Assembly: GCF_011734195.1 (NCBI RefSeq)
Contig: NZ_JAANTH010000002.1
Span: 496,001 to 560,000 of the forward strand
Origin: Halobacterium sp. R2-5
Lineage (GTDB): Archaea > Halobacteriota > Halobacteria > Halobacteriales > Halobacteriaceae
Direction of reading: 5' to 3'
Length of the DNA: 64,000 bases
The notes under the pieces were generated by a model. That model had not been told where the DNA came from and made no database searches. It saw nothing but the letters and a program-made list of their open reading frames with translations. Each line of letters starts with the position of its first letter. The first letter of the stretch is position 1. Made by a program: the position numbers and the translations under genes. Shown here piece after piece: positions 42,722 through 63,983 of this stretch.

Positions 42722-42934
42722 ATGAATCGAGTACCCGTCTCCTCAAGCAATCTCAGCAGTGTAGGGTATGATGAGTCGAATCAGGTTCTGGAGATTGAGT
42801 TCAACGGTGGAAGAGTCTACCAGTATTTCGACGTTCCCGAACGAATTCACCAGGGGCTTATGAATGCCACGTCGCACGGGAAATACTTCCATCGGAATAT
42901 TGAAGACAACTATCGCTACGATCAGATCAAATAA
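42722..42934 (+). CDS. KTSC-domain protein
   Basis: A 70-residue protein consisting of a KTSC domain: VSSSNLSSVGYDESNQVLEI, then GGRVYQYFDVPERIHQGLMNA and SHGKYFHRNIEDNYRYDQI. The pattern (SS...GYD...L.I.F..G..Y.Y..VP...) is diagnostic. KTSC domains occur as short stand-alone proteins in phages, bacteria and archaea and are thought to bind nucleic acid. The last base of its stop is the first base of the next ATG (TAATG), so it is coupled to the OLD-family nuclease. Confidence 0.85.
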   Translation: MNRVPVSSSNLSSVGYDESNQVLEIEFNGGRVYQYFDVPERIHQGLMNATSHGKYFHRNIEDNYRYDQIK

Positions 42935-46480: not shown

Positions 46481-47272
46481 TTACGCCCAGCCGGCCTCCT
46501 TACGCATCACGTCGTCACGGAGGTCCTCTACCGTCTCTACGATGTCGTCTTCTTCCATCATCTCTACCCGTCGAACCGTCAGTTCCTCCCTGAGCAGCGT
46601 CGTCGTCCGGCTCACGATGTTACTGTTGGACGGTGGATCGTCGTACGTACCCTCCTCCTTAATCTCGTTCAGTATGTCGTGACAGAGGAGGTCACCGCAG
46701 GCGTGCGTAACGGGGATGTACCGTGCGAAGTCGTGGTCAAGGATGTCGTTGGCGAGTTCCTGGAAACCGAGGACCTGCTTCGTTCTGCTGTAGTCTCGAT
46801 CTTCAACATCTCCCGATTCACCTTCCTCGTATGTGAGCTCAGCTCCCCACCAGATCCGGTGCAGTGCGTTGGAGTAGGCGTCAGTGCCGGCCTTCAAGAA
46901 TTTCTCCTCCATGTTACCGGGACTCTCCGGGTCAAAGACGTGGTCCCACCGGTAGTGAACGAACTCAGGGAATCGAACGACACAGAGGTAGTGCCACAAT
47001 CCGGCGTCTGCCGCTTCATTGCGTGTGAGATCAAGAGTGCGATGGAGTGTCGGCGCTAACTCGGCGTCAATAAGCGAGTCTTGAGCGTCAATGTCGTCGC
47101 CGGCACGAATCTCCTCAATCCGCTCGTCAACCGGGCTTAGGTCTATGGAACGACCCAGTGGTTGTAAGTATGGACGAAGATCGTCCTCCGTGAACTCACG
47201 GTCACCTGCGAGAAACCGATTATCAATCATCGGATGGGCCGCACTCTGCAGGTGGTAAAGCTCAGTCGTCAC
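46481..47272 (-). CDS. DUF6339-like protein, module A third gene
   Basis: A 263-residue helical protein sharing a signature with the genes at 52936 and 61768: GLWHYLCVVRFPEFVHYRW near 90-108, EKFLKAGTDAYSNALHRIWWGAELTY near 122-147 and a C-terminal helix. The conserved tryptophans, arginines and SNxxxRxWW motif resemble the family annotated DUF6339 in restriction-modification-type loci, from memory. Function unknown. Its start overlaps the middle gene of the module by 11 bases. It is the last gene of module A. Confidence 0.75.
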   Translation of the reverse strand: MTTELYHLQSAAHPMIDNRFLAGDREFTEDDLRPYLQPLGRSIDLSPVDERIEEIRAGDDIDAQDSLIDAELAPTLHRTLDLTRNEAADAGLWHYLCVVRFPEFVHYRWDHVFDPESPGNMEEKFLKAGTDAYSNALHRIWWGAELTYEEGESGDVEDRDYSRTKQVLGFQELANDILDHDFARYIPVTHACGDLLCHDILNEIKEEGTYDDPPSNSNIVSRTTTLLREELTVRRVEMMEEDDIVETVEDLRDDVMRKEAGWA

Positions 47273-48332
47273 TTTGAATCGCCTCCTCGATTAGATTCGT
47301 CGTGTCTGACGGGATGTTGTACTGCTGATGTACCGTTCGTTCGATTCGCTGGACGAGGTCAGGGACATCAACGTGACTCCTGACGTCTTCGGCAAGTTGA
47401 ATCGCTGCCTCTTCGTCCCCGAGACCCGGATACAAATCGTCCATGAAGATGTTGAGTACGTCTTCCTGCCAGCCGTACTCTGGTTCACCGGTGTCGGGGC
47501 TTGTGTCGCGTGCTGTTTGCATCAAGAGCTGCGTCCAGACGGAGTGCTCGATATAGTCATAGAGCACGTCGCGTAGCCGTGGTGGCCCACCCGTGGCACC
47601 TGTGTTGTTCAGAACTTCAACTACCTGTGGATGTTCTTTGTTCAGGTACAGTTGCGGGTTCCGAGGTGCTTCCAAACTAAGATAGTGGATGTGGTTCTCG
47701 TCGGGGAAGCTATCGTAATCGCTGAAATCCTCTATAATCGGCATGAGAAGACTTCCACCGTCATCCCTCTCGTCAAGTCGAACTACCCATGAGAGCCCGT
47801 CAGCAACACGTGCACCCACTTTGGACGCGTGTTTCGACCCATCAGAGCCGCCTTTCTTGGTTCTGGTGAGGAACGGCTTGATTCTTACTCGTCCACGGTG
47901 ATCGTCACGGTTGATGCTCAGAGTGAATTCGTAGGTTCCGCCATCCAAAGGTTGGTCGGCGAGTATCTGCCGGTCTCGACTCATTGCGAGGGGGTTCTCC
48001 TTCACTAGTGCGAGGCGACCCGGCGTCTCTTCCCACTCGTTAAACGGGAAGACCTCCTCTACATCATCTTGATTGACAGTAACCGTGCCTTCCAACTCTA
48101 GAGCCTCCCAACCCCCCTCGTCCACCAGCGACAAAAACTGTTCGTCCTGGTCAAGGTCTCCCCTATCACCAAGAGCGGTTCCATCTAAACGGAACGACTC
48201 AACCTCAAATTCGAGTGTCTCTTCTTGGTACTCGTGTGGGAGAGACTGGCTGACTAAACTACCTGTCTGGACGTCTTCTTCTCCTCCTTCGTCCGGTTCT
48301 GTGCCTTCAACACCTTCATTGACAGTGGCCAT
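47262..48332 (-). CDS. Module A middle protein, unknown family
   Basis: A 356-residue protein with an acidic N-terminal tail. A beta-rich half contains LEFEVESFRLDG and VRIKPFLTRTKKGG, and a helical C-terminal half contains YLSLEAPRNPQLYLNKEHPQVVEVL and SVWTQLLMQTARD...EYGWQEDVLNIFMDDLY. The same landmarks occur in the proteins at 53643 and 60729, so they form one family. I see no nuclease or helicase motif. The start overlaps the ATPase stop (TAATG). It may link the GHKL ATPase to an effector. Confidence 0.75.
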   Translation of the reverse strand: MATVNEGVEGTEPDEGGEEDVQTGSLVSQSLPHEYQEETLEFEVESFRLDGTALGDRGDLDQDEQFLSLVDEGGWEALELEGTVTVNQDDVEEVFPFNEWEETPGRLALVKENPLAMSRDRQILADQPLDGGTYEFTLSINRDDHRGRVRIKPFLTRTKKGGSDGSKHASKVGARVADGLSWVVRLDERDDGGSLLMPIIEDFSDYDSFPDENHIHYLSLEAPRNPQLYLNKEHPQVVEVLNNTGATGGPPRLRDVLYDYIEHSVWTQLLMQTARDTSPDTGEPEYGWQEDVLNIFMDDLYPGLGDEEAAIQLAEDVRSHVDVPDLVQRIERTVHQQYNIPSDTTNLIEEAIQSDD

Positions 48333-50221
48333 TACTCTTCCCTCCGTTCTGCCACGTCAACTGACACTTTCATTCTGGTCTCGACTTGTCTGTAATCTTC
48401 TGTCGACACGCCTTCAAAGGAGACCTTTGATGTACCAGGAGCAGGCTTCAGCCGTCCTACTTGAACGCCCTTCTGTTCTGGCAGCGATATTGAGACACCA
48501 GCCGTATCTGATGAGATGTTTTGTACGGGAAGGCGGTCCGACGTCGCTCTTTCCTCTGCCATCCGAATCAGTGAGACAGTGACTGATCGTATCTCGTTGC
48601 CGTCGTTCAAAGGCTCCACCTCGCCGTCGAACGACCAGTGTGTGTACACTTCGTCGAACGAGATGTTAGTGCTTCCAGTAACACGCTGACTACTCGGCGA
48701 CTCACGATCAGAACGACCCCCTCGTGACTTATTTCCGATCTTGAATCGGTTCCCCAGACGCTGAGGTCCGGTCGTGCCTCGATCAACGTCGGGCGCGACG
48801 AGTCCACGTAACGTCTCAGTCACGTCAGACTTGATGCCCTCTACTGCGGTTCGGAACCCCCGAGAGTAGGAGTTCGCCAGTGTCTCCGTTCGCACCCACT
48901 CGTCGTGCTGAGGTGGCTCCGCAGCTGTCAAGAATTCCTCTACGACGGTGTCTACGTCTTGCGGAGTCTCGTCAGTCCCCCACGGCCGGGCACGCCCACC
49001 AAGGAGGACGGCGTGGAAGTCCTGATTCCCGACGACGACCCGGTCGCGGTCGTAGTACTCGACGACCATTCCCGCCCCTCGGACGAACGCCACCTCGTTC
49101 CGGTGCTGATACTCCCCCGTATCTGCACGTCGAACCAGCAAGTCCAATTGACCATCTGCACCGCCACTACCGTCGCTCTTCTCGGGAACGTCAAGTGATA
49201 TGGCTGTCTGCGCGACATCTTCGGGTTCGTCCAACTCGCTGACCGAGTCGTCACGGTCGTCTAGGCAGCTCGTGAAGGGCTCGTATTGGGGATATTCGTC
49301 GATGCTCGCTTGCTTGGTTTCACCTTCCACTTCAACTGCAACCTCTAGATCACCACGATAAATCGCGGGCCAGAACCATTCGATTGCCATCTCGGTGATC
49401 TGGTCTGCTAACTCCTCATCGTCCTGTCTCTCTTCCGCGGTAGGTACGCGGAAGTCCACAACTTGAATGCTTGTTCCCGGTGCGTCCGGGCGGCTCAACT
49501 CTAGGTCGTCCGCTATTGATTCGGCTTCTTCTCCCCAAACAGACTCCGGCCTAGATCCCTCCTCATCGCCGTTCAAACCACCGTACCAACCGTGACCTTG
49601 GTAGACAGTATCGCCGTGCTCCGATTTGTGCGTTGGCAACCGCGTTCGACCTATCAGTCGTGGGGACTGATCTTTGGGATTTGGCTCGCTAAGTGTCGAG
49701 TTAAACATGACGAGTGACAGGCCCGAGTAAAGCCACAGGACGGCCTTCCCCAGACCATAACTCCCCCCTGCGGTATCCCCCGACTTGCTACTGAATAGAA
49801 CGTCTCGCACCAGAGCAGTGAAGTTCGATTCGTCGGCATTCTCTTCACCGAGGAGGCCTTCCGTATTCTCGTCCTCAATAGTTAGTACACGAATCTTCTC
49901 CTCGTCATTGATGCGTTCAATCGCCTCAGCGATATGCTTCCCGCTCTCCGTGTCTGTTGCTAAGTTAGCGTGCTCGGACCACGTCTCGATATCGAGTGCT
50001 CTAAGATACTCAATCGCCTCCTCACCCTCTAAGGATTCCAATTTGAACGTAACCCTTGCCGGTTGATCGTTGTCCAACCGTGCGTCATTCGAGTTCTGGA
50101 GTACTTCTCGAACAAAGGTCTTCAGTCCTGGTTCACCGTGCGACATCGCGTATTTTGCGACGTCGTCACCGTATCGAGCATCAGTCGGCCGAGATGTCGT
50201 GAATCCCCACTGACCGCTCAT
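48332..50221 (-). CDS. GHKL-family ATPase, module A first gene
   Basis: A 629-residue protein with an N-terminal GHKL (gyrase/Hsp90/MutL) ATP-binding domain: N box FVREVLQNSNDAR (E39, N43), second motif TIEDENTEGL (D117) and ATP-lid glycines GGSYGLGKAVLW (152-163). A transducer-like region follows (about 250-450), then a beta-rich C-terminal domain ending MKVSVDVAER, shared with the copies at 54632 and 58828. There is no kinase histidine, TOPRIM or HNH domain. GHKL ATPases of the MutL/MORC type occur in restriction-like operons; this one starts a coupled three-gene unit. A role as a DNA clamp is inferred. Confidence 0.85.
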   Translation of the reverse strand: MSGQWGFTTSRPTDARYGDDVAKYAMSHGEPGLKTFVREVLQNSNDARLDNDQPARVTFKLESLEGEEAIEYLRALDIETWSEHANLATDTESGKHIAEAIERINDEEKIRVLTIEDENTEGLLGEENADESNFTALVRDVLFSSKSGDTAGGSYGLGKAVLWLYSGLSLVMFNSTLSEPNPKDQSPRLIGRTRLPTHKSEHGDTVYQGHGWYGGLNGDEEGSRPESVWGEEAESIADDLELSRPDAPGTSIQVVDFRVPTAEERQDDEELADQITEMAIEWFWPAIYRGDLEVAVEVEGETKQASIDEYPQYEPFTSCLDDRDDSVSELDEPEDVAQTAISLDVPEKSDGSGGADGQLDLLVRRADTGEYQHRNEVAFVRGAGMVVEYYDRDRVVVGNQDFHAVLLGGRARPWGTDETPQDVDTVVEEFLTAAEPPQHDEWVRTETLANSYSRGFRTAVEGIKSDVTETLRGLVAPDVDRGTTGPQRLGNRFKIGNKSRGGRSDRESPSSQRVTGSTNISFDEVYTHWSFDGEVEPLNDGNEIRSVTVSLIRMAEERATSDRLPVQNISSDTAGVSISLPEQKGVQVGRLKPAPGTSKVSFEGVSTEDYRQVETRMKVSVDVAERREE

Positions 50222-50359: not shown

Positions 50360-51886
50360 TCAGAATTGTCCCTCTGGGGGAGTACCGGTGGCCAGGTAGT
50401 GTGCGCCGATGAGGTCCTGACGGACTTCACTAAGCTCACGTGACCGACGTAGGGTGTCAGAGCTTAGCCTGTCAAGAGCGACGACCGAGAAACGCAAGTC
50501 CCCGTAATACTCGTTCTGCAATTTGAACAGGCGACTAGATATCGATCCGGTTGTACCCATTTCTTGGACTGTTTGGCCCCAGGGATCTTCTGTCTCGTAC
50601 TCTCGCCACACCCGGAACGCATGAACTCCGCTACTATCGATCATGTCGCGCTCAGAGAGGGGGCGGCTCTTCGACCAGTTCAGCCCCAACCATTGCTGGG
50701 AGGTTACGTTACGCCAGGGCTGCCACAACGGTACGGTATACGAGAACTGTTCTGCAATATCCCTTAGCTCTCGAAGCGACTCACTATCGGAGCCGTTCAC
50801 GTGCTCGGCAGGCTCTCGGTTCAGTTGGACCATGGGAGTCCAGCCAATCTCTCGACGACAGATCGCCACTAAAGTCGCCTCAATAGCACGGCGATGTCTC
50901 CGATTGGACGATATCGGGGGTGTCGTGACAGAAACTTCCATCTTACCCCCTGCAGTCTCAGTAATTCGCTGAAGGGGACGAGCAGCACCGTGTTTGTCCC
51001 CGGTCTGTTGATCCGAGGTGGCCACCCCGGCTGATAGACCAAGCCCCACTCGCTGTCGAACGCCTCCCTCCGCTCCCGACTCCCCTACATACATCAACCC
51101 CGGGAGTTCTGTGTGTCGAACTCGGTAGAGCCCTGGACGGCGGGGGAGCTCTTTACGGAGCGTTTTCCAGTCTCGGAGGTCAAACCATCTTGACCAATCA
51201 AGCCCCATCCAAGTGGAGTCCTGAGGATCCGGTTCAAGACGAGTGAGTGGTCCAGGAACGTCCAGAGTTCGTGTCTCCGCCGCACTCCGGCGTGTAGCCT
51301 GGTCAACCGTGGCAAGCTCCGACTGAACGATGGACTCGGGGACTGAGAGTATCTGGGCGATCGCGTCACTATTAGGGACGTACTGTGAGAGGATCCACAT
51401 CGTCGCCTGTCGGTTCGTTAGTCGGGTCTTGTCCACCACCGCTGCAATATCGTCAATAGCTGCTGTGGGGAACTCCGAACACGGGACGACGAATCCACCA
51501 CTGTCTCGTATCCTATCGTCTCCAACCACCATTCTGACCTGTCGGTTATGGGCCGTCGCTACGGCGTCTCGACCATCGTCTGTGAGTCCGATTCGATCGG
51601 CCACAGTGTCCCAGCACTCGTCGGCTTCAGCTAGCACGTACAATAGGCCATCGTCACTTTGTGAAACGGGAAGGGGATCAAAGCTCGTGAATAGAGTCTC
51701 AACGTTAATCACAGACGTACTACGCACTTCTCGGAGGGCTCTGGCCAGTGAATCTGCCTCCATGTGATACTGGGTAGCGACAGCCTCAACGATGTCCTGG
51801 GAGACAGGCACACCGACGAATGGGTCCCCAACGTAGGACGAGTTCGAATCTGGATCTAGAAATACATGACACACGTTCTCGTCCAT
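50360..51886 (-). CDS. Tandem GIY-YIG nuclease-like protein
   Basis: A 508-residue protein. The N-terminal 200 residues include a predicted helix-turn-helix (TNRQATMWILSQ...DAIAQILSVPESIVQSEL). The first GIY-YIG domain has PGLYRVRH (252-254), LMYVGES (266-268), the arginine in VRQRV (277 or 279), E336 in RAIEATL and N356. A second, degenerate copy follows: WLGLNWSKSRPL (399-410) repeats WMGLDWSRWFDL (226-237), with GVHAFRVWREY, an R452 helix and a terminal ELSEVRQDLIGAHYLATGTP. The second lacks the YIG tyrosine. It is a likely restriction effector, lying between modules A and B on the same strand. Confidence 0.78.
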   Translation of the reverse strand: MDENVCHVFLDPDSNSSYVGDPFVGVPVSQDIVEAVATQYHMEADSLARALREVRSTSVINVETLFTSFDPLPVSQSDDGLLYVLAEADECWDTVADRIGLTDDGRDAVATAHNRQVRMVVGDDRIRDSGGFVVPCSEFPTAAIDDIAAVVDKTRLTNRQATMWILSQYVPNSDAIAQILSVPESIVQSELATVDQATRRSAAETRTLDVPGPLTRLEPDPQDSTWMGLDWSRWFDLRDWKTLRKELPRRPGLYRVRHTELPGLMYVGESGAEGGVRQRVGLGLSAGVATSDQQTGDKHGAARPLQRITETAGGKMEVSVTTPPISSNRRHRRAIEATLVAICRREIGWTPMVQLNREPAEHVNGSDSESLRELRDIAEQFSYTVPLWQPWRNVTSQQWLGLNWSKSRPLSERDMIDSSGVHAFRVWREYETEDPWGQTVQEMGTTGSISSRLFKLQNEYYGDLRFSVVALDRLSSDTLRRSRELSEVRQDLIGAHYLATGTPPEGQF

Positions 51887-51952: not shown

Positions 51953-52726
51953 TCAGAACTCGTCTAAATGGTGGTTGTCTTCCTTTTTACGTTTGACATC
52001 CATCTCCTCATCGTAGTCGGAGTAATCCACACGCCCCTCCGAGATTCCTTGTTCGTTCTCATACACCATCAACCAGAGCCGGACCAAGTAATAGATGAAC
52101 GGTGCTGGAATCGCGTTCTTCGCCAAATGGCTCTTTGGATACGGATTTGGTGAGTAGTTTTTCACTGCCGCCCACCACTCTTTGGACCGCTCGGAGAAGA
52201 AGAACGAGGAGGTCTCAGCTTTCTCAGACGGGCCACCTGTCGTCAGGAGCTGCTTCAATCGAGGAGGTTGTGGAACCTCAAACGAGGTCTCGAAAGCGCG
52301 CTTGTACTCAATTGGCATCCCGAACATCCGTCCGTTCAGAACGACGGGGTCGTTAAGCGGTGCGCGCGGGACGTTCTCAATAATGTAGTGATCACAGTAT
52401 TTCTCCGCGAGTATCCGTGCACTCGGGATCATGTTCTCGTGCTCCTCGGGATCCCCCGAGATGCTTGTCGTTGCAGCCCAACGTGAGCAGACAGGATGGA
52501 ACAGTCCAAGGTCAAACTTGATGTCGTCCTTAAGTGGGAGGTCCCAGTCCTTGTCCTCTATGTGGGCGTCTGCTTTAATCGGCGTACTTTCGTTCGTGTC
52601 CTTGGGATTGATTCCGATACGTACCACGTTCCCGAAGTCACTGAGGACCTCTGATTCCGTCCCATAGTCTGCGAAGCAGTGGAGGATGAGTGGTTCTCCA
52701 CGTGTGGTGTCTCCGTTTGAGGTCAT
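51953..52726 (-). CDS. Small C5-cytosine-methyltransferase-like protein with altered motifs
   Basis: A 257-residue Rossmann methylase resembling DNA C5-methyltransferases: motif I CFADYGTES (17-25), motif IV GLFHPVCSRWA (C80, where canonical enzymes have PPCQ), motif VI YIIENVPRAP (ENV at 117-119), and motif VIII-like YKRAFETSFEVP near 141. There is little room for a target-recognition domain, and motif I lacks the usual FxGxGG. It could be an active short enzyme, could depend on a partner for target choice, or could act as a decoy. It lies between the GIY-YIG gene and module B, same strand. Confidence 0.7.
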   Translation of the reverse strand: MTSNGDTTRGEPLILHCFADYGTESEVLSDFGNVVRIGINPKDTNESTPIKADAHIEDKDWDLPLKDDIKFDLGLFHPVCSRWAATTSISGDPEEHENMIPSARILAEKYCDHYIIENVPRAPLNDPVVLNGRMFGMPIEYKRAFETSFEVPQPPRLKQLLTTGGPSEKAETSSFFFSERSKEWWAAVKNYSPNPYPKSHLAKNAIPAPFIYYLVRLWLMVYENEQGISEGRVDYSDYDEEMDVKRKKEDNHHLDEF

Positions 52727-52935
52727 ACGGGGTCACCTATCTCCTGTCCAGCGCTCTCGGGGCCGCTAAAAGAATCCCCTGAAGAGAACACCGGTGTAGA
52801 GTGCGCGTAGAGTGTCACTATCATATGCATAGACGACGACTCAGTTTAAACTCTCCATCTAAAACGATACTTCAGTATAGGTCCATTCACGCATCTTTAT
52901 TGAGAAACCAAGTAAAGTGATGATATTCAGTAGAC

Positions 52936-53646
52936 CTATTCGGAGACGTAATCAAGAATTCTGTCCAGTTGGTCTTCGAAATTCTGGCGACTTCGAGAGT
53001 CCATTTGGTACGTTGAGAGCGATTGGTTAAACCTCCGTCCAACATCGCTAATGGTTGTTCCAGATTCCGAGTGAAGCTTGCTGACGAAGGCGAGCACAGC
53101 GGCCCGACAACGGTTGAATTCGCTGTCCAGTACATAATTAGCAATCCGTTGTTTATTAAACATTTTATGGGTGCCGTAGTAATGCTCTGCCTCCCGGTTG
53201 TAGGTTAGGTGGGCACCCCACCACAGACGAGCCATTTGGTTCGAATAGAGGTCGCCCTGTTCCCCAAGGAGCTTCTCTTTCAGATCACCGTGTCCGAGCC
53301 AACGGGTCACAACATAGTCCGGGAATTCGATGAGTGCGAGGTATTGCCAGACGCCGATTTGACCCGCGACACGTGGGGGAATCTCGTAATACTGATGAAC
53401 GAGTGGGGAAAGTACCGAATCCATCGCCGACCGCTGTGTATCGATATCTGGATCAAAGATGGTCGTGGCGCGTTCAATTACCTCCTCCAGCGCAACTAAA
53501 TCAATACTAGCCTCGGGGACCGAGTCGTATTCAACATACCCCTCTAAGTCATCCCTCAGCGAGAGTACCTCCTCCCGGGAGGTGAACTCATCGTGCTCCT
53601 CTACCATATCCCGGCCAGCATCGGTGAGTCGTGGAATATCAGTCAT
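52936..53646 (-). CDS. DUF6339-like protein, module B third gene
   Basis: A 236-residue paralog of the proteins at 46481 and 61768. It carries GVWQYLALIEFPDYVVTRW near 125-143, EKLLGEQGDLYSNQMARLWWGAHLTY near 149-174 and a helical C terminus. It is the most diverged copy: the first motif has VWQY for LWHY, and the histidine of the HRxWW stretch is replaced (MARLWW). Its ATG overlaps the middle-gene stop. AT content is higher than in module C. Confidence 0.75.
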   Translation of the reverse strand: MTDIPRLTDAGRDMVEEHDEFTSREEVLSLRDDLEGYVEYDSVPEASIDLVALEEVIERATTIFDPDIDTQRSAMDSVLSPLVHQYYEIPPRVAGQIGVWQYLALIEFPDYVVTRWLGHGDLKEKLLGEQGDLYSNQMARLWWGAHLTYNREAEHYYGTHKMFNKQRIANYVLDSEFNRCRAAVLAFVSKLHSESGTTISDVGRRFNQSLSTYQMDSRSRQNFEDQLDRILDYVSE

Positions 53647-54626
53647 GGTCTGAAGTCGTCAATGAAGTCGTTGAGTTGTGAGGCTTGGTCAAGATACAGT
53701 TGTACGGCGACGTTGAGCTCACGGATGAAGCTCCGAAGTTCATCAGGTTCGGACACAGCCTCACCGAGACTCTCAACTACCTCATCGTACGATGCACCCT
53801 CATAGAGATACGGGCCGATCTCCTCAATCAGGCCTTCCTGCCAATCATACTGTGGTTCGTCGGATTCGGCGACCGTCGTTGCTGTATGAATGACGAGCTG
53901 TATCCAAGTTGACGTACCTAACTCCGCCTTGATGACGTTCTTTAAATATGCGTCAAAGCTGTAGAACGTCTCGGTTTCCAATATGTCCACTATCGGCTGG
54001 TTGAGAGTGTTGACGAGGACTGCAGGTTCTCGTGGGTTGCTCTTGAGCAAGTGGACCGCATCCTCTGGATAGTCGCCGTCGGAGAAGTCCCTATACCGAA
54101 ACGGGAAGCCAGTGCCACTCTGTTCGGGTTCATCTATCTGGACTTTCCAAGCGTCACCACCTGCGATACGCATACCTCCTTTCGGAGCGAACGGGAGCCC
54201 ACTGGATACATCATCCGTCGTAACGATTCGCGGAGTCAGCGTCACGGTGTCACGAAAGAGATTGGCCTCCAGATCAATGGTTTTTGTATACGTTCCAGTA
54301 GTTAGTGGCTCGTCCTCGATGGCCACTTCGTACCGCAGGTGTGTCGATTTCGATTCAACGACGACAATCAGCTTAGCATCGTAAGGAGGGGAGCCCTCAC
54401 AAACGTGGTCCAAATCTCGGTCAGAGATTGACAGCGACAGCGAGAGTTCTGCCCGATCCCACGGCTGGTAACGAAAGAGTGGTAGGGTGGTTTCGTCTGT
54501 TTCGGGCTCCGAAGGTTCAGTTTCATCAACGCAGTATTCGCTAATCTGGAGATCTATCGCGTCTTCCCGGTAGCGATAAGGGAGCTCGTCGGCGTTAGCG
54601 GACGCACGTTGGATGTCGGGTGTCAT
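53643..54626 (-). CDS. Module B middle protein, unknown family
   Basis: A 327-residue paralog of the genes at 47262 and 60729. Shared features: LPYRYREDAIDLQISEY at the N terminus (compare LPFSYREKGVDFELNSF in module C), VTLTPRIVTTDD, VHLLKSNPREPAVLVNTLNQ, and STWIQLVIHTATTVA...QYDWQEGLIEEIGPYLY. It starts 5 bases after the ATPase stop and overlaps the DUF6339-like start as ATGA. No catalytic motif recognised. Confidence 0.75.
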   Translation of the reverse strand: MTPDIQRASANADELPYRYREDAIDLQISEYCVDETEPSEPETDETTLPLFRYQPWDRAELSLSLSISDRDLDHVCEGSPPYDAKLIVVVESKSTHLRYEVAIEDEPLTTGTYTKTIDLEANLFRDTVTLTPRIVTTDDVSSGLPFAPKGGMRIAGGDAWKVQIDEPEQSGTGFPFRYRDFSDGDYPEDAVHLLKSNPREPAVLVNTLNQPIVDILETETFYSFDAYLKNVIKAELGTSTWIQLVIHTATTVAESDEPQYDWQEGLIEEIGPYLYEGASYDEVVESLGEAVSEPDELRSFIRELNVAVQLYLDQASQLNDFIDDFRP

Positions 54627-54631
54627 TCGAG

Positions 54632-56620
54632 TTATTCCTCCATGATTTCGGCACTGATTTTAATCTTAGTTTGAGTGGCTTCGCCGACGTCAAAGAGTTC
54701 CTCTGGGTCCCGGGAGAGTCCATCTAGCTCAATAGAGTCCCCCTGGAATGCGACACGGTCAGCCGTTCCATCGGCTTCAAGATGGGCGACTCCGTCGGCA
54801 TCAATTGAGGTATCGGCGTCTCCTTCCACGACTTCAAAGTCATCTATCGGGATTGACTCGCTCTCATGTTCTTGACTGTCGAGTCTTACGAGTTCAACGG
54901 TGAGTGTCCAGTCACCATGGCCTGAATCGCGGGGACCACCTTTAGCGTAGAATTGCCACCTTTCGTCGTCAATCCAGACGTCGGGTCGGGTTTCCCAGCT
55001 GAGGGCAGGGCCCTCGTCGTTATCGGAAAATCGGCCGTCCATAATCGGGACGATCTCGTCCATCCCTGGCACTTCGTCACCAGAATTGACATCCTCCTGA
55101 ACAACGTCGTGGATCTCTGCTTCCAGTCGTTCACCCTTTAACGCGTTAATTTCAGCCGTGATGGTCCCGATGTAGTGTTCGTCAAGATAGTCGTTGTTGG
55201 AGCCGACCCAGTCGTCGTGTTGTGTGGGCTCGGATCTCTTAAGGAAGTCTTCGAGAGCTGCTTCTGCATCCGTGACGTCCTCGCCAGGCCGCGTCTGTGC
55301 TTCGCCGGCAACCATGACCGAAGCGAAGTCTTTGCCGCGGTTGGCTGCCCGAGACATATCGACGTAATCAACGATCATCTGGGCCCCGCGGAGTCGCGCC
55401 ACATGGTTGATTACCAGTTCGTCGTCATCGTCAGCATCGAAATCAGCCCGGTCCGCTGGGGTGAGGTGACGTACGATGAGGTCAACGGCAGTTTGGTAGC
55501 CGTCGTGTGGGTCCTCGTCTATCGTTTCTGGGTCTTCGCGTGGGATTTCGATTGGTACTTCTCGTTTCGCAAAGCTACCGGCCCCACTCAGTTCCGTTTC
55601 GCTGATATCGAAGTAGTCGCTATAGCACTTGACGTACGGCTTGACTCCGGGGGCATCGTCAAGTGTCGCCTCCGTTTGGGTCCCATCTGGAGTCTTAACG
55701 TGAACTTCCAGTTCGTCTCGCACCATTGCTGGCCAGAAATATTTCACTGACGCATGGCGGAAAGAGGCAGCTAGCTCGTCCATCTCGGGATCGGATCCTC
55801 CTGGAATGCGGAAACCGACAACGCCGATGCTTGTTCCGTAGTTGTTGTTTGGTCGGCTTACCGAGAGCGTGTCTGCGAGTTCGTCCGCGTCGTCGAGGTC
55901 TCCCCAGAGCGACGCTGGACGGCCGATGTCGTCAATGCGGTCGGGGTCGTTTCGACCGTACCAGCCGTGGTTCGTGAAATGCGTCGTTTCCGCTTCGTCA
56001 GTGTGTGCTGGGACAATTGTACGTCCGACGAGTCGTGGCGGTTCACTACCACCGTCAGAGGGGAGTGAATCTGGATTCGAATTGAACAGGACTGTGGAGA
56101 GGCCTGAGAAAGCCCAGAGTACTGTCTTGCCGAGTCCCTTGCTCCCACCCGAACTGGATCCCGGTTTGTTCGTACTGCCGAAGTCTTTGACAAGTGAAGC
56201 GTAGGTCTGCTTTGTGTCTGTTTCAGTACCCCGGAGACCGGTCGTATGCTCGTCGTGAATGGTGAGGACGGTGAGGCTGTCGCCGTCAAAATGATTAAGA
56301 AACCGCTTGAGGCCTGGGTCACGGGCCTGATCGTTTTCGATTGCGCGTTCTATATGCCAGCGGAGATCTTCTGGGCTCCCACCGTGCCAATTCCATAAGA
56401 GCGTCTCTAAAAAGTCCTCAAGGTCGCTTCCTGTGAGTGTGGTAAAATCGAAAGTTACCTTTACAGGTTCTTCCTCGGAGACGCCTTGGTCATTTGCGTT
56501 TTGAAGAACTTCACGAACAAACGTTTCAAGAGTGCTATCCAAAGCACTCTCGGTAGGGTTTTTGTGATATTCTGTTATCCCCGACTTCTGCTCTGGGAAT
56601 TTCCAGACAGGATCAACCAT
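54632..56620 (-). CDS. GHKL-family ATPase, module B first gene
   Basis: A 662-residue paralog of the proteins at 48332 and 58828. N box FVREVLQNANDQ (E37, N41), second motif TIHDEHTTGL (D123) and lid GGSKGLGKTVLW (158-169) are intact, so ATP binding is likely. The middle region has SVKYFWPAMVRDELEVHV, also shared by the other copies. The C-terminal beta domain ends TKIKISAEIMEE. It heads module B, transcribed away from the glycosylase/methyltransferase pair but on the same strand. Confidence 0.85.
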   Translation of the reverse strand: MVDPVWKFPEQKSGITEYHKNPTESALDSTLETFVREVLQNANDQGVSEEEPVKVTFDFTTLTGSDLEDFLETLLWNWHGGSPEDLRWHIERAIENDQARDPGLKRFLNHFDGDSLTVLTIHDEHTTGLRGTETDTKQTYASLVKDFGSTNKPGSSSGGSKGLGKTVLWAFSGLSTVLFNSNPDSLPSDGGSEPPRLVGRTIVPAHTDEAETTHFTNHGWYGRNDPDRIDDIGRPASLWGDLDDADELADTLSVSRPNNNYGTSIGVVGFRIPGGSDPEMDELAASFRHASVKYFWPAMVRDELEVHVKTPDGTQTEATLDDAPGVKPYVKCYSDYFDISETELSGAGSFAKREVPIEIPREDPETIDEDPHDGYQTAVDLIVRHLTPADRADFDADDDDELVINHVARLRGAQMIVDYVDMSRAANRGKDFASVMVAGEAQTRPGEDVTDAEAALEDFLKRSEPTQHDDWVGSNNDYLDEHYIGTITAEINALKGERLEAEIHDVVQEDVNSGDEVPGMDEIVPIMDGRFSDNDEGPALSWETRPDVWIDDERWQFYAKGGPRDSGHGDWTLTVELVRLDSQEHESESIPIDDFEVVEGDADTSIDADGVAHLEADGTADRVAFQGDSIELDGLSRDPEELFDVGEATQTKIKISAEIMEE

Positions 56621-56886
56621 TAGTGAGATGCTATTTCACGGGTGACTATGAATATGTGATGGTGAAAATAGGCCTACTCGTCCAAACGACCTCCGAATCT
56701 TGAAACGATAGAGAATCTGCTGGTTTGAAGTGTTAAATCGTCCATCAGCAGGTGGCGACCTCCGATTTGAAGGGGTTCTCTGGAATGCAACACATTCTAC
56801 TCCATTGCTCTTACCAAGCAAAGCAGGCTAGAGAAACACGCTACCTCAAGATTTGTTGCCTCCGACTTTGGGGTACTACTCACGTT

Positions 56887-57510
56887 TTACCGTTCTCGGA
56901 AGTAGACACAGTAGTCGTTGGCGAAACACTGCTCACACAGCGGTTCATTCTGGCAGACCAGCGCACCGAAATCGAGCAGAGCGAGATTGTACGCCCGGGC
57001 CTGGCCAGGAACAAATCTCTGCGTGAAAGCCAGCTGATCCGATTCTGTCTCGGGCCATGTGTCTCGAAATACCCGACTGTACACTCTCTCTACGTTCCTG
57101 TCAAGCACCGGCAACTGGTCACCACGGGCGAAGCACAACGTAGCGTTCGCCACGTAGTGGCCGACTCGCGGGAGATCCATCAACGAATCAGGGTCAGTGG
57201 GGAGGTGGTCATGTGTCGAGGCGATCTGCTTCAGCGCCCCTGCGCGCATGTTTTGGAATCCGAGAGGCTCAATAGCCTCGACGAGTTCCTCCTCACTGGC
57301 CTCCTCAATCTCGTCCAGCGTCGGGAACTGTTCCAGGAATCTTGGGTAGACCGCTTCAACGTTGTCAGCCGGTGTCTGAGTCAGGAAGAACTCCGCTACG
57401 AACACCTCGTACAGTGTTCGATCTGGTTCCCGCCATGGGTACTCGCGTCGGTTCTCTGTCCCCCATTCGATCAGGTCTGCCCTGAACTGGCACTCCTCCT
57501 CAGACGGCAT
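56887..57510 (-). CDS. MIG/MutY-type Fe-S DNA glycosylase (likely T:G mismatch)
   Basis: A 207-residue HhH-GPD glycosylase. EYPWREP opens the domain, VAEFFLTQT (E40) follows, the helix-hairpin-helix is LPRVGHYVANA (113-123), the catalytic aspartate is D137 in PVLDRNVERV, and a 4Fe-4S loop has C186, C192, C195, C201 (x5-x2-x5). The residue at the EndoIII lysine position is Y119, as in the thymine-DNA glycosylase MIG, not Lys (EndoIII) or Ser (MutY). It starts 8 bases after the cytosine methyltransferase stop, so it probably repairs T:G mismatches from deaminated 5-methylcytosine. Confidence 0.85.
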   Translation of the reverse strand: MPSEEECQFRADLIEWGTENRREYPWREPDRTLYEVFVAEFFLTQTPADNVEAVYPRFLEQFPTLDEIEEASEEELVEAIEPLGFQNMRAGALKQIASTHDHLPTDPDSLMDLPRVGHYVANATLCFARGDQLPVLDRNVERVYSRVFRDTWPETESDQLAFTQRFVPGQARAYNLALLDFGALVCQNEPLCEQCFANDYCVYFRER

Positions 57511-57518
57511 AATGTCTC

Positions 57519-58634
57519 TCAGTCGTCGGCGACGGTGGACTCAACAGACGGTGCTGCTGCACCGACGTGGGAGAGGATTGCTTGCCCCATGTACTCACCT
57601 AGCTTTGGGGGGACTGCGTTACCGATCAACCGGCCAAGATTCGACACGCCGACGTCCTCCCACTCCTCGTAGAAGTCGTAGTCTTCCGGGAATGTCTGAA
57701 GCAGTGCTCCCTCGAGGAGCGAGAGAGCTCTATTCTGGTCTACATCGTAATGTCCGAAGCGGCCACTGCCGTAGTTATAGAACTGTGTCGTGATCGTCGG
57801 GGAGGGTTCGTCGGGCCGCATCCGGCTGTAGGGAGCTTTGTACGAGCGTCCACTCGCCTTCCGGTGACAGTCCGCGAGGAGGTGGTTGAGGTCCTCCTCC
57901 TCCCAGAGAGTCCAATCTCCGCCTGGTTCCATATTATCGATACGCTCCAGATTCTTTTCCGAGAGTGAGCGTGCCCTATGCAAGTCGTTCACCTCACTGA
58001 CTTCGCCTGCTTCGATTGGTGGCAAGTGATCAATTGTGTCTTTGACCGTGGGGTAGTTGTCTTCGTTCTGAATGGGGGGTTCGGGTAAAGAGAGGGGGCT
58101 CTGTTTGGACGCCATGACCACCCACCGCTTCCGCTTCTGGGGGATTCCGTATTCGGGACAGTAGACATTCTTGTTTTCGTCACTGTTGACGTGGTAGCCT
58201 TGGGATTCCAGGCTATTGACGAACGAATCGTAGACACCGTCTTCTTGTTTTACCTGGAGTACGTTCTCGGTGACCACTACATCCGGTTCAACGTACTTTG
58301 CGATCCGGGATACCTCGTTCAGCAGCCCCCACTTTTGATGATCCTCGTGGCCTTTCCCCTTTGAGTGCCCCATCGTTGAGTACGGTTGACAAGGCGCACA
58401 CGCCGCGAGGACCTTCAGATCCGCATCCCACGGGTACATCTGTGCGATTGGTTCGGGATCCTGTGCTAGCGAACTGATGTCTGCTCTGACGTATTCACCG
58501 TCGATATTCTGTTCGTACGGGTACTTACAGTCTGGGTCGTGGTCAATCCCTGCAACGACCGAGATACCGGACTCCTGGAGCCCATAACTGAGCCCACCGG
58601 CCCCGCAGAACAGATCCACTGCGGCTACCTTCAT
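57519..58634 (-). CDS. dcm: DNA (cytosine-5) methyltransferase
   Basis: A 371-residue canonical C5 methylase. Motif I is DLFCGAGGLSYGL (7-19), motif IV AACAPCQPYS (catalytic cysteine near 81), motif VI VVTENVLQV near 122, motif VIII RKRKRW near 175 and the C-terminal motifs IX-X (SPTITTQF, LGRLIGNAVPP). The target-recognition region lies at about 190-290 and is of moderate size. The recognition site cannot be read from sequence. Coupled with the MIG-like glycosylase downstream and divergent from GHKL module C. Confidence 0.93.
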   Translation of the reverse strand: MKVAAVDLFCGAGGLSYGLQESGISVVAGIDHDPDCKYPYEQNIDGEYVRADISSLAQDPEPIAQMYPWDADLKVLAACAPCQPYSTMGHSKGKGHEDHQKWGLLNEVSRIAKYVEPDVVVTENVLQVKQEDGVYDSFVNSLESQGYHVNSDENKNVYCPEYGIPQKRKRWVVMASKQSPLSLPEPPIQNEDNYPTVKDTIDHLPPIEAGEVSEVNDLHRARSLSEKNLERIDNMEPGGDWTLWEEEDLNHLLADCHRKASGRSYKAPYSRMRPDEPSPTITTQFYNYGSGRFGHYDVDQNRALSLLEGALLQTFPEDYDFYEEWEDVGVSNLGRLIGNAVPPKLGEYMGQAILSHVGAAAPSVESTVADD

Positions 58635-58827: not shown

Positions 58828-60726
58828 ATGGACCAGGAGCAAATACAAATCAACGAAGCGGTCAATTGGTTCTTCTTCAGTGGTGGGCCAGGAGCGCCAC
58901 GCTACGGCGATGACCCAACCAAACACGCCGTTGACCACGACTCCGAGGCGTTTGTCCGTGAGGTTCTCCAAAACGCGAACGATCAGGCCCTTTCAAACGA
59001 CGATCCAGTCGAAGTAACGTTCCGTTTCGTCACGCTCACGGGAGACGAGAAAGAGGAGTTCCTCAATGGATTGGGCTGGGATGACGGGCTCGGGGAACGG
59101 ATGCAAGCGGTCGCAGACACACACAATGGTCACCGCTACGAGCGGGTCGTTGAACGAGTTAACGACTCCGACGCCGAGCTCCGCCTCCTCATCGTCGAAG
59201 ATAGAAACACAACCGGCTTGACCGGAAATTGGGACGAAGACTCAAACTACGCCGCCCTAGTCCGGGACGAACTCTACAGTAGCAAGCAAGACGACACCGC
59301 CGGTGGCTCGTACGGCCTCGGCAAGTCGGTTCTCTGGACGTTTTCGGGTGCTTCAACGGTCGTCTTTAACTCACACCTCGCACACGGTGAGCGTGAGGGC
59401 GAGTCTCCGCGACTCATCGGCCGTTCTAAGTTCCCTACCCACCAACTCCAGGGAGACGATACGACGTACCAAGGTGCGGGGTGGCTCTGCCAGCCAATCG
59501 AAACGGATGAAGGGCCACGTCCGGACTCATTCTGGGGGGAGCGTGCGTCGCGGCTGGCGGAACAGCTGCACGTGGAACGGCCCACTGTTAGCGGAACGAG
59601 CGCTATGGTCGTCGAGTTCCAGGACCCGACCCGGGACGAGCGACCGGACGTTGAAGACCTCGCACAGGAGTTTGTTGAAGCATCTGTCAAGTACTTCTGG
59701 CCAGCGATCTATCGAGGCGATCTCGATATTACGGTCGAAACGCCAGACGAGACACTGACAGCTGACGTAGAGAGCGTCCCAGCGATCCGTCCGTTCGTTG
59801 AGGCGTACGACGAGAGAACGACGGACGCTCAGACGTTGGCAGACCCTGGGGACGTTGCTGGACTCGACATTCCGGTAGAGATCCCCCCTCGTGCCGATGG
59901 GTCCGAGACTCCCGACGGCTCAGTACGGTTGTCGGCTCGCCTCGCGTCCCCTGCAGACGACGATGCGTATCTGAATAGCGTTGCACTGTTCCGTGGAGCG
60001 GGGATGGTGGTCAAGTACTACGACCAGAGCCGTGTCGCCTACGGTGATCGAAACTTCTTCGGCGTGCTGGCTGCTGGCGAAGCACGGCCGGAAGGAACTC
60101 CGTCCAAGAGTGACCGAGAGATTGACCGATTCCTGCGATTTTCCGAACCACCAGAACACGACGAGTGGGAGTCCACCGAGAACCTCCGTGAACAGTATCA
60201 ACGTGGCTTCCGCACGGCACTTGACAACATGTTCGGAACGCTACGTGACGGCCTCCGTCATCTGATATCGAAGGGAGGAAACACCGATTCTCTCTCCGAT
60301 AATGTTCTGAACCGGTTCCCGATCCACGGGAGTGGGAATCCCCGATCTACGACGTCGCCCGCAGAGCCTGTCTTCGAGATCGACAGCTCATCTCGCTTCG
60401 ATGGCGATGCATGGACTATCTCTGGTCGAATTAAAGTACTCCCTGAAGAGTTTGAGGGGTGGAGTGCCGACATCTCACTCACGGGTGTTGGGGAGGACGG
60501 ATCCCGATACGACGACATTCCTATCAACGACGTTGAGGTCGAACAATCCGGTGTAACCGTGTCGTACGACGACGGGTCTGCTCACCTCGTCGCCGACGAA
60601 CACGTCTATGAAGTCTCGTTCTCTGGTCGTTCGCATCCCGATGAAGCCGCTGACTTAGTACACGGCGACGTCGGCGCGACCCAACTAGAGATACTCGCAG
60701 AGTTACAGACGCCCGAGGAGGATTAA
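58828..60726 (+). CDS. GHKL-family ATPase, module C first gene
   Basis: A 632-residue paralog of the proteins at 48332 and 54632. N box FVREVLQNANDQ (E45, N49), second motif IVEDRNTTGLTG (D125) and lid GGSYGLGKSVLW (159-170) are intact. Also shared are SVKYFWPAIYRGDLDITV near 290 and LFRGAGMVVKYYDQSRVAYGD near 393, close to LRGAQMIVDYVDMSRAANRG in module B. The C-terminal domain is beta-rich. It heads the plus-strand module C and is divergent from the cytosine methyltransferase, making it the copy most clearly tied to DNA modification. Confidence 0.86.
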   Translation: MDQEQIQINEAVNWFFFSGGPGAPRYGDDPTKHAVDHDSEAFVREVLQNANDQALSNDDPVEVTFRFVTLTGDEKEEFLNGLGWDDGLGERMQAVADTHNGHRYERVVERVNDSDAELRLLIVEDRNTTGLTGNWDEDSNYAALVRDELYSSKQDDTAGGSYGLGKSVLWTFSGASTVVFNSHLAHGEREGESPRLIGRSKFPTHQLQGDDTTYQGAGWLCQPIETDEGPRPDSFWGERASRLAEQLHVERPTVSGTSAMVVEFQDPTRDERPDVEDLAQEFVEASVKYFWPAIYRGDLDITVETPDETLTADVESVPAIRPFVEAYDERTTDAQTLADPGDVAGLDIPVEIPPRADGSETPDGSVRLSARLASPADDDAYLNSVALFRGAGMVVKYYDQSRVAYGDRNFFGVLAAGEARPEGTPSKSDREIDRFLRFSEPPEHDEWESTENLREQYQRGFRTALDNMFGTLRDGLRHLISKGGNTDSLSDNVLNRFPIHGSGNPRSTTSPAEPVFEIDSSSRFDGDAWTISGRIKVLPEEFEGWSADISLTGVGEDGSRYDDIPINDVEVEQSGVTVSYDDGSAHLVADEHVYEVSFSGRSHPDEAADLVHGDVGATQLEILAELQTPEED

Positions 60727-60728
60727 GA

Positions 60729-61766
60729 GTGACCAGACACTCGCAACGACACCGTACTACGACACTTCCGTTCAGCTACCGTGAGAAGGGAGTAGACTTC
60801 GAACTGAACTCGTTCACCGTTGACGACGGGAGTCAAACAGAGCTTGAACTGAACCCGGCACAAACAGAGATTGACCTCGCTTCAGCCGTGTCGTCATCCG
60901 ACAGGAGTGGTGAACCGAATTGGAACACCATCACTCTTCACGGAAAGCTACGCCTGCCTGAGGAGACGGTTCAAGCAGTCTTTCCACAAGAGGAACGGGC
61001 ACAACCTCCGGCTAAGCTCTACGTCACTATTCGTTGTCACGAGACGATCTATCGTGACCGGGTTGTCATCTCCGAGTCTCCAACGACACCCGGCGAATAC
61101 GACGTTGTACTAGAAGTCCCGAAGAACACTGTCCGAGGGACTGTCGAACTACGTCCATATCTCGTTCGCACAGAATCTCATCCCGGGGGGCAGCCGAGCG
61201 ACTACGCCGATCAAAAGAACTTCCGTCTCGCCAGTGGGACGCTGTACTACGTCGTAGTTGATCGTCCTGATGACGAAGAGCGAGCCGCCATTGATGGTGA
61301 GCAAGTACGGTTCTCACAGAACGATCACCTCCCCGGTGGGAACAAGCTCTACTACCTCGACTTCCGAAACGAGAGTCGTCCCAAGCTGTGGATTAACTCC
61401 GACCACCCTCGTATCGCCGAGGTACTACAGAGTAGAGGATCTGTCGGGGCGGAGGCTCGGATGCGTGACGTCATACTTGACCAGGTGAGCTACGGTGTGT
61501 GGGTGCAATTGATCGTCCGGGCTGGTAGTGCCGTAGATGTAGAGGGCGATGTTGAACACGAGTGGCAAGAGATGGTACTCCAGACGTTTGCTCGTAACCT
61601 CTACGAGACTAGTGACGTGGACGAAGCGACTCACCGTCTCAGGGATGATCTCTCTGACCCACAGACTCTACCCCACGTGATACAGAGAATCGATAGTGAA
61701 CTGCAGGAATACATAAACCCCCGAGAGCAGCTGATCCATCTCATGGAGGAGGGGCTCCAGATCTAA
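60729..61766 (+). CDS. Module C middle protein, unknown family
   Basis: A 345-residue protein homologous to those at 47262 and 53643, started by a GTG 2 bases after the ATPase stop. Landmarks are LPFSYREKGVDFELNSF, VELRPYLVRTESHPGG, YLDFRNESRPKLWINSDHPRIAEVL and GVWVQLIVRAG...EHEWQEMVLQTFARNLY. The pattern of a beta-rich N-terminal half and a helical C-terminal half is the same in all three. No recognised enzymatic motif; a structural or adaptor role is inferred. Confidence 0.77.
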   Translation: MTRHSQRHRTTTLPFSYREKGVDFELNSFTVDDGSQTELELNPAQTEIDLASAVSSSDRSGEPNWNTITLHGKLRLPEETVQAVFPQEERAQPPAKLYVTIRCHETIYRDRVVISESPTTPGEYDVVLEVPKNTVRGTVELRPYLVRTESHPGGQPSDYADQKNFRLASGTLYYVVVDRPDDEERAAIDGEQVRFSQNDHLPGGNKLYYLDFRNESRPKLWINSDHPRIAEVLQSRGSVGAEARMRDVILDQVSYGVWVQLIVRAGSAVDVEGDVEHEWQEMVLQTFARNLYETSDVDEATHRLRDDLSDPQTLPHVIQRIDSELQEYINPREQLIHLMEEGLQI

Positions 61767-61767
61767 C

Positions 61768-62457
61768 GTGACCGAGACAGAATTACACCGACTGACCGAA
61801 GACGGACGCCGCCTCGTTGGTCAGTCGTTCATGAAAGGCGAGGCGACGCTCACCGACGAACAGCTGGACGAGTACATAGAACCCATACCGGGCCACCCAA
61901 CTGCCGACCTTGATAGGATTGATTCGTCGGTACAGCAGGTAGTTCAGGAGTACCCGGAGTACGACACAGCTATTGATGGCGCACTCGCTGAAGAGATTCA
62001 CCGGGGCCTCGACATTACGAGACGAACTGCTGGAGATCCGGGCCTCTGGCACTGGCTAGCAGTCGTCCGGTATCCAGAGCTCATCCGGCACCGCTGGGAG
62101 TACCGCTCTGAGGAAGCGATGAGGGAGAAGTTCCTCGGGGCAGGTTCCGATTTGTACTCGAACGCCATCCACCGTCTCTGGTGGATTGCGGAGCTAACTT
62201 CCCGTGACGACGATTATTCGACGACTGACGCGGTCTTCGCCAATCAGACGATGGTCAACAAGGTGTTTGACCGCTGGTTCGCGCGCTACCGACCCGCTGT
62301 CCGAGCTATGTGCGACGAACTCGCAGATGAACCATCCCGTGTCATTGACGAGACGACGCGACGATTCAACCATGCACTGACGAACGTACAGCTTGAAGGC
62401 CTGTCCGAGAACGAGGCACGTGAGATGATTCGGCAGATCGTCGCTGAGTCTCGATAA
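61768..62457 (+). CDS. DUF6339-like protein, module C third gene
   Basis: A 229-residue helical protein begun by a GTG one base after the previous stop. Signature segments are GLWHWLAVVRYPELIRHRW near 90-108, EKFLGAGSDLYSNAIHRLWWIAEL near 117-140 and RYRPAVRAMCDELA. It is closest to the module A copy. The strict conservation of WH, RW and SNxxHRxWW suggests a structural core or an active site, but no reaction can be assigned. Confidence 0.77.
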   Translation: MTETELHRLTEDGRRLVGQSFMKGEATLTDEQLDEYIEPIPGHPTADLDRIDSSVQQVVQEYPEYDTAIDGALAEEIHRGLDITRRTAGDPGLWHWLAVVRYPELIRHRWEYRSEEAMREKFLGAGSDLYSNAIHRLWWIAELTSRDDDYSTTDAVFANQTMVNKVFDRWFARYRPAVRAMCDELADEPSRVIDETTRRFNHALTNVQLEGLSENEAREMIRQIVAESR

Positions 62458-62804: not shown

Positions 62805-62903
62805 GTGTGGAGACTGGCCTTAGGGGTGTTGGGTATCAGAAATGCCCGGGTGCTAGAGACACCCGGGGCGTCAAGCAAGAACCAAGCAATACGACAACGA
62901 AGT

Positions 62904-63983
62904 ATGGCAGAAACTACAGCACGATCGAACGGCGAATCAAGCGGTGACCGAACAGGCAGTGGCGGGTCTGACCGCACCGGACTCTGTGAGTGTAACGAGA
63001 CCGTGGACCCAGACACGCGTCAGGAGGTATTGGAGGAGTACAAGCACCGATGCCAAGCGTGTGGGCGGCGCGGTCCGGAAGAAGGAGGGTTGGCGACGAT
63101 ACACGTCCACCATATTGACCGTCACATTGATGACATGGATGAGCACGCGATGGAGAACTTGACGTTGATGTGTCGTCCGTGTCACAGCTGGCTCCATCAA
63201 CAGGCGACGCCGGGTGAGTCGCCGGTGACGATTACGGACGCGGATCGGAACGTCCTGTTGCCGCAGGACGTTGAGGTGTTGCAATTCCTCGCATCGCACG
63301 GGCCAACGCGGACAGGGGACATCGCGTCTGGGATGACCGCTGACCTGTCTGTGTCTGCGGTCCGGGAGCGACTCTGGGTTCTCATGGGGCTGGACAATCG
63401 TGTTGAGTCGCGTGACCGGCAGATCGTCGATAAGGACGTCGAGACCGGTGAGTGGGGACTCACGGATCAGATCGAGAACTCTGCTCGCGGTCACATCCCG
63501 GATGACCAGCAGTTACTGTTGCAGCGGATGGAGGATGAGCAGGTGCGGCGCGCGCTTGACCGCGGCTGCGAACGGCGCGCGGTGATGGACGTCCTGGGAA
63601 TCTCGCGGCGCTCAACGTTCAACAAAATCAAGCGAGCTTACGCGTACGACTTCCCGCTCGACGCGTTCAGCCGCGGTGGCCGCCCGACAAGCGAGACCCG
63701 CAATCAGGGACGTGACGTGGAGCGTGATACACCAAAGGATGACGCAGGCGACGAGCAGCAGCGCCTCAACGATGTCGCTGGCGAGGATCTCGGTCGCGTG
63801 GAAACGTGGGGGAACAGCGATACGACGACTGGGCCATCAGGGTTGGCGGCGGGTAGTGGAGATGATGAGTCCGCCTCCGGTTGTCCAGAGACTGAAGCCG
63901 TGTCACCCAACCTAACTGAGGAGTTGCTTCGAGAACTTCAGTCAGCGATTGAAGCGTTGGAAGCGGCCGACGAAGCGCTGTAA
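62904..63983 (+). CDS. HNH endonuclease with C-terminal helical/HTH region
   Basis: A 359-residue protein starting MAETTARSNGESSGD. The HNH domain has a Cys4 zinc frame: CQACGRR near 51, the HVHHIDRH active-site histidines near 68, and MENLTLMCRPCHSWLHQ near 82-98. It is followed by a winged-helix-like region (TRTGDIASGMTADLSVSAVRERL) and RRAVMDVLGISRRSTFNKIK, a second HTH. The acidic low-complexity C terminus is about 80 residues. This type occurs in haloarchaeal plasmids and proviruses. An upstream in-frame GTG at 62805 exists but overlaps the palindrome. Confidence 0.82.
   Translation: MAETTARSNGESSGDRTGSGGSDRTGLCECNETVDPDTRQEVLEEYKHRCQACGRRGPEEGGLATIHVHHIDRHIDDMDEHAMENLTLMCRPCHSWLHQQATPGESPVTITDADRNVLLPQDVEVLQFLASHGPTRTGDIASGMTADLSVSAVRERLWVLMGLDNRVESRDRQIVDKDVETGEWGLTDQIENSARGHIPDDQQLLLQRMEDEQVRRALDRGCERRAVMDVLGISRRSTFNKIKRAYAYDFPLDAFSRGGRPTSETRNQGRDVERDTPKDDAGDEQQRLNDVAGEDLGRVETWGNSDTTTGPSGLAAGSGDDESASGCPETEAVSPNLTEELLRELQSAIEALEAADEAL

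Follow-up and report, generated by a model that had tools for sequence, protein, structure and literature searches.

The stretch of DNA analysed here, 64,000 nucleotides long and hereafter called the window, encodes a 207-aa protein that, judged by its sequence and structural model, is probably a Mig-type 4Fe-4S HhH-GPD mismatch glycosylase made together with a C5 methylase, for which it would provide T:G/U:G repair as an equivalent of Vsr. The gene pair and its conservation, the specificity residues, the fold, the tracking of C5 methylases and the alternation with Vsr were all observed.

The methylase and glycosylase genes are paired

The earlier note on this DNA had placed two ORFs 8 bases apart and read the upstream one as a cytosine methylase. 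Both ORFs were found as described, on the minus strand, and the methylase was recognized by its family profile:

57519-58634, minus strand: C5-cytosine DNA methyltransferase of the DrmMII family, 371 aa (PF00145, E = 4.5e-48; PADLOC DrmMII model PDLC02651, 844 bits)
57511-57518, minus strand: 8-base gap from the methylase TGA to the glycosylase ATG
56887-57510, minus strand: HhH-GPD (MutY/Mig-like) DNA glycosylase, 207 aa, predicted to act on T:G/U:G mismatches (PF00730, E = 7.8e-15)

The PADLOC DrmMII model covers the methylase over its whole length, and the short gap is consistent with one transcript for both genes. PADLOC labels the glycosylase a 'type II nicking endonuclease' (PDLC03398), using a model of 221 positions, the length of Mig, which we take to originate from the REBASE entry for Mig. 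The pairing is more than chance, because many genomes have the same two genes together and the dN/dS of the glycosylase is ~0.1-0.2.

Active site and domain make-up resemble Mig

For a comparison of residues, we aligned 80-odd relatives and took both the numbering and the sequence of Mig from 1kea. In this alignment E40, Y119 and D137 of the window glycosylase correspond to the catalytic Glu42, Tyr126 and Asp (D144) of Mig, R27 is an Arg as in Mig, and the catalytic Lys with which Endonuclease III carries out its lyase reaction is replaced by Tyr119. The earlier note had taken Y119 with D137 as the MIG pattern and Ser as the MutY residue at this place. Both residues are present, but Tyr does not discriminate, as a Tyr and a Glu at the active site are common to the Mig type and most MutYs. 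Among the aligned MutYs, those of Geobacillus (as also reported in PMC2714593), Listeria, Parabacteroides, Azospirillum, Thermomicrobium and haloarchaea carry Tyr, and Ser was found only in that of Klebsiella, the one enterobacterial MutY sampled. We therefore dropped Tyr119 as a residue that tells MIG from MutY.

At the places of the Mig specificity pair, A50/L187, the window glycosylase has A48 and L176. MutY has V45/Q182 here, and the exchange A50V/L187Q switches Mig from T:G to A:G, whereas Ala/Leu placed in E. coli MutY gave no T:G activity (PMC2714593); the residue pair is therefore not sufficient. Methylase-linked relatives mostly carry Ala, Ser or Gly at the place of A48 and Leu or another hydrophobic residue at that of L176, and MutYs carry Val/Gln or Leu/Asn. 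Some relatives were retrieved with patterns containing Ala and Leu, so that their conservation of both is partly a result of selection, and the residue argument rests on the 80-odd-relative alignment, apart from these pattern-retrieved relatives.

The Fe-S loop reads C186-x5-C192-x2-C195-x5-C201. Its first interval had been remarked on as x5 instead of x6; the spacing is as noted, but it is not unusual, since close relatives share it, and by sequence it is a trait of the lineage and no anomaly. The protein stops 6 residues past the last Fe-S Cys and lacks the MutY C-terminal domain.

Profile and fold place the glycosylase nearer Mig than MutY

When the family profile was run against PDB sequences, Mig 1kea came first (214.8 bits; best MutY 184.7). 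The AlphaFold model of the window glycosylase (mean pLDDT 96.2) likewise matched 1kea best (Z 27.2, against 25.1 for the best MutY, with an rmsd of 1.6 over 206 residues), at ~29% sequence identity to Mig. By sequence and model, the protein is thus Mig-like in pocket, size and fold. The earlier note had held that a phylogeny placing the protein inside MutY proper would speak against this reading. In our tree the MutY clade (100/99) excludes the window glycosylase, but the tree does not group the protein with Mig, and an AU test in which the window clade was joined to MutY did not reject that topology at 5% (p 0.084). The core of that note, a C5 methylase with a MIG-like glycosylase in analogy to Mig of pFV1, is well supported by A48/L176, the missing C-terminal domain, the best profile and fold matches, the position outside the MutY clade and the tracking of C5 methylases described below.

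Another short MIG-like glycosylase is encoded in the same genome, 22 kb outside the window (G000:C2:582245-582847; L076, L117); it keeps the Ala of Mig and has His at the Leu187 place. There is no C5 methylase near it, and its relatives group in a separate clade of haloarchaeal proteins.

The glycosylase follows C5 methylases and alternates with Vsr

Whole-protein and HMM searches that ignored gene context found relatives of the glycosylase adjoining C5 methylases of varied size and orientation in haloarchaea and methanogens. MIG-type genes also lie beside C5 methylases at named loci in Lokiarchaeota, a Baldrarchaeote, DPANN, Paenibacillus and others, and pairs of the same kind occur on Thermus and Caldicellulosiruptor plasmids and in Bacillota. 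The methylases so accompanied include those with and those without flanking PDC-M33 cassettes.

Among 20 haloarchaeal genomes with an M33-linked relative of the window methylase, the glycosylase is intact in 14, decayed in four (Halobacterium sp. DL1, G243, G215 and G008) and absent from two; three methylase relatives without M33 genes had no glycosylase in the 20 kb fetched (0/3). For comparison, 79 other C5 methylases of haloarchaea were sampled; six of them had either a separate MIG-type gene or a fused domain within 2.5 kb, and one more had a chance Nth neighbour. The difference between 18/20 and 6/79 gives a Fisher p of ~1e-12, an approximate value, since three of the 79 belong, distantly, to the family of the window methylase and the table was entered with 78 for 79. 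A MIG-type gene is no general need of haloarchaeal C5 methylases, as most of them have no such gene nearby.

Vsr (PF03852) was found in none of 284 Halobacteria, the window genome included, in a search whose control gave matches in E. coli, B. subtilis and others. Of seven M33 loci in Bacillota, two hold a C5 methylase with a MIG-type glycosylase (L239, L245) and one a C5 methylase with Vsr, together with an EcoRII-type nuclease (L243); in the other four, which lack a C5 methylase, there is no glycosylase and no Vsr. Small as these numbers are, they link the repair gene with the methylase and not with M33, and loci of one kind are seen to hold either of two unrelated T:G repair enzymes. This alternation fits the neighbourhoods of bacterial MORC/paraMORC genes, which often contain both a C5 methylase and Vsr (Iyer et al. 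2008, PMC2292703). The earlier statement that bacteria use Vsr is an oversimplification, given the glycosylase pairs of Bacillota and of the Thermus and Caldicellulosiruptor plasmids.

Decayed and fused forms among the relatives

In Halobacterium sp. DL1 the segment between the glycosylase and MT2 (a methyltransferase-like gene, listed below) has been replaced and the glycosylase is kept only to its first ~19 codons, with a methylase still 89% identical to that of the window. Decay of the glycosylase gene by stop codon, truncation or frameshifts is recurrent (L032, L223/L246, L249, L252, L051), and the methylases beside these genes are mostly intact.

Four C5 methylases carry a fused C-terminal HhH-GPD domain (L052:9956-11845, L180:1850-3847, L183:1778-4060, L190:2384-4222). 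As proof of a common function these proteins are weakened by the change of Tyr to Ala and of Leu to Arg in 3/4. Their HhH-GPD domain may have no catalytic role and instead bind DNA, and because most of them have lost active-site residues, some relatives would appear to have another role.

The gene pair lies in a modular defence island

The earlier note had overlooked that the genes stand in a defence island. Two of the three M33A-B-C cassettes of the window flank the methylase-glycosylase pair:

58828-60726, plus strand: PDC-M33A, 632 aa, divergent from the methylase, with GHKL-like ATPase boxes by sequence (PADLOC; invariant box residues)
60729-61766, plus strand: middle gene of this M33 cassette, 345 aa, no family (order kept in relatives)
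61768-62457, plus strand: PDC-M33C/DUF6339, 229 aa (PF19866, 4.5e-21)
54632-56620, minus strand: PDC-M33A of the second cassette, 662 aa (PADLOC)
53643-54626, minus strand: middle gene of the second cassette, 327 aa (order kept in relatives)
52936-53646, minus strand: PDC-M33C/DUF6339 of the second cassette, 236 aa (PF19866, 3.1e-16)
51953-52726, minus strand: MT2, second DNA-methyltransferase-like protein, 257 aa (phrog_363 DNA methyltransferase, 9e-5; kept in related loci)
50360-51886, minus strand: 508-aa protein, no family (adjoins MT2 in most of the close relatives too)
46481-50221, minus strand: third M33 cassette (A 48332-50221, B 47262-48332, C 46481-47272)

The island has a G+C content of 51-62%, compared with 65-75% in the adjoining DNA. 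Relatives keep the order of the locus, often with drmA-drmB-drmC of DISARM alongside, and the related locus of Halomicrobium urmianum includes drmA. The only drmA match in the window genome scored 21.3 bits and lies on another contig, and a DISARM system in this genome was ruled out for lack of a convincing drmA. Profile comparison did not connect MT2 with the C5 fold of the methylase (hhalign probability 0.3%), leaving the weak phrog_363 match. The GHKL fold of M33A was not adopted: its motif boxes were seen, but neither a PDB sequence profile nor Foldseek, run with a middling model, confirmed it.

The stretch between the glycosylase and MT2 (window 52727-56886; the same place in L031-L037) is a modular exchange slot, whose content differs between genomes: it may be empty, or hold small genes or any of several unrelated M33 cassettes. 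Elsewhere in the window, at 35060-42658 and within the low-G+C island, lie genes for Mre11-like, Rad50-like, NurA (PF09376) and HerA-like (PF01935) proteins in a row, the first two named by eye. An OLD/AriA/GajA-like ATPase with a TOPRIM domain (42934-44850) is followed by a 415-aa protein of no family (45005-46252), and at 62805-63983 lies an HNH endonuclease with weak similarity to the HNH regions of ZorE and IscB. In Haloplanus sp. GX21 a MIG-like gene lies downstream of a cyclase and a Pycsar effector (L083:7568-9621).

Proposed mechanism and alternative readings

In the mechanism we propose, the methylase would modify the archaeon's own DNA, converting cytosines at its target sites to 5-methylcytosine, part of which would deaminate to thymine and leave T:G mismatches. 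The glycosylase would flip the thymine (or uracil) opposite G out of the helix and, using D137, E40 and Y119, cleave the glycosidic bond of that base, after which the cell's AP endonuclease, polymerase and ligase would restore C:G. The glycosylase would thus take the place of Vsr in a modification system, for which the flanking PDC-M33 cassettes, in many relatives with drmABC of DISARM, probably form the defence arm. The T:G substrate, the target motif and the action of both proteins at the same sites are what we infer here.

The location of the gene among M33 cassettes, and often DISARM genes, could instead mean that the glycosylase is a defence effector, excising a base from invading DNA (modified, deaminated or in unmethylated sites, the methylase then protecting the host) so that the abasic sites are cut, in the manner of Brig1 or R.PabI. 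Anti-phage glycosylases exist (PMC11078745), as do glycosylase restriction enzymes beside a methylase (PMC10273834), and the inactivation of the glycosylase in several genomes that keep the methylase has been reported for PabI-type genes as well. We nevertheless consider an effector unlikely: Brig1 belongs to the uracil-DNA-glycosylase superfamily (PMC11078745) and PabI has another fold (PMC10273834), whereas the window protein has the active-site pair of Mig, tracks C5 methylases outside defence cassettes too, is absent from M33 loci without a C5 methylase and alternates with Vsr, a repair enzyme. Loss of the glycosylase with the methylase kept is fairly frequent and is allowed by both the repair and the effector readings. 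A more specific form, to which we give little credence, is that the glycosylase acts in M33/DISARM-type immunity by making abasic sites in incoming DNA with deaminated, modified or wrongly methylated cytosines, to be processed by the GHKL-type M33 machinery; if true, this would amount to an HhH-GPD base-excision immune system.

A MutY-type adenine glycosylase with A:8-oxoG or A:G as its substrate, whose place beside the methylase would be accidental or reflect a role in general repair, is very unlikely. A single-sequence PDB search scored MutY and Mig alike, the best NCBIfam model was mutY (TIGR01084; 139.6 bits, under its cut-off of 286.5), and the AU test left the joint clade standing at 5%, but the protein has no C-terminal domain, carries A/L and not V/Q and falls outside the MutY clade, and the genome already encodes another, full-length MutY (L073, C2:751958-752551). 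The model also matches ROS1 (Z 18.3), which, with the gene directly beside a C5 methylase, might point to a ROS1/DME-like 5-methylcytosine glycosylase erasing the marks of the methylase. This we regard as highly improbable, given the Tyr in place of the EndoIII-type Lys and the far better match to Mig; moreover, we know of no prokaryotic 5mC erasure of this kind. Equally improbable is a decaying, non-functional remnant, which the truncated, frameshifted or stop-containing relatives in Halobacterium sp. DL1, G243, G215 and G008 would suggest, since the window copy is intact with all its catalytic and Fe-S residues and the dN/dS is low.

Comparison with known systems

The closest known counterpart of the window protein is Mig.MthI (V.MthTI; 1kea) of Methanothermobacter plasmid pFV1, which shares the HhH-GPD domain and 4Fe-4S cluster, the Y/D site, the Ala/Leu pair, the short form without the MutY C-terminal domain and the position beside a C5 methylase. 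It differs in its x6 first Fe-S spacing, and the window protein stands apart in its DrmMII-family partner, its M33 island and its mesophilic haloarchaeal host. Vsr, a very-short-patch T:G mismatch endonuclease, would perform the same task beside C5 methylases, but its fold and chemistry are unrelated, as it nicks the strand. MutY, which excises adenine from A:8-oxoG, shares the superfamily, core fold, Fe-S cluster, catalytic Asp/Glu and mostly the Tyr; the features separating it from the window protein are those given above. With regard to DISARM (drmABC and DrmMII) and the PADLOC candidate PDC-M33, the window methylase fits DrmMII and the loci of relatives hold drmABC and M33 genes, whereas the window genome has no convincing drmA.

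We found no paper describing a glycosylase in DISARM or PDC-M33 in the open-licence literature searched. Within that literature, a Mig-type gene beside a C5 methylase is a known arrangement, and its M33/DISARM setting and alternation with Vsr are new.

Implications

Our results suggest that cells which methylate cytosine for defence have repeatedly met the resulting T:G mismatches with two unrelated enzymes, Vsr and the Mig-type glycosylase, and that both have been put into the same kind of defence locus. Genes labelled hypothetical or mutY in databases would thereby gain a testable role as repair partners, and the solution of pFV1, a plasmid of a thermophile, would be extended to haloarchaea that are mesophilic, to Asgard archaea and to some bacteria. 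The loci with decayed glycosylases are natural knock-outs, and those such as Halobacterium sp. DL1 could be useful for gauging the mutational cost of 5mC in archaea.
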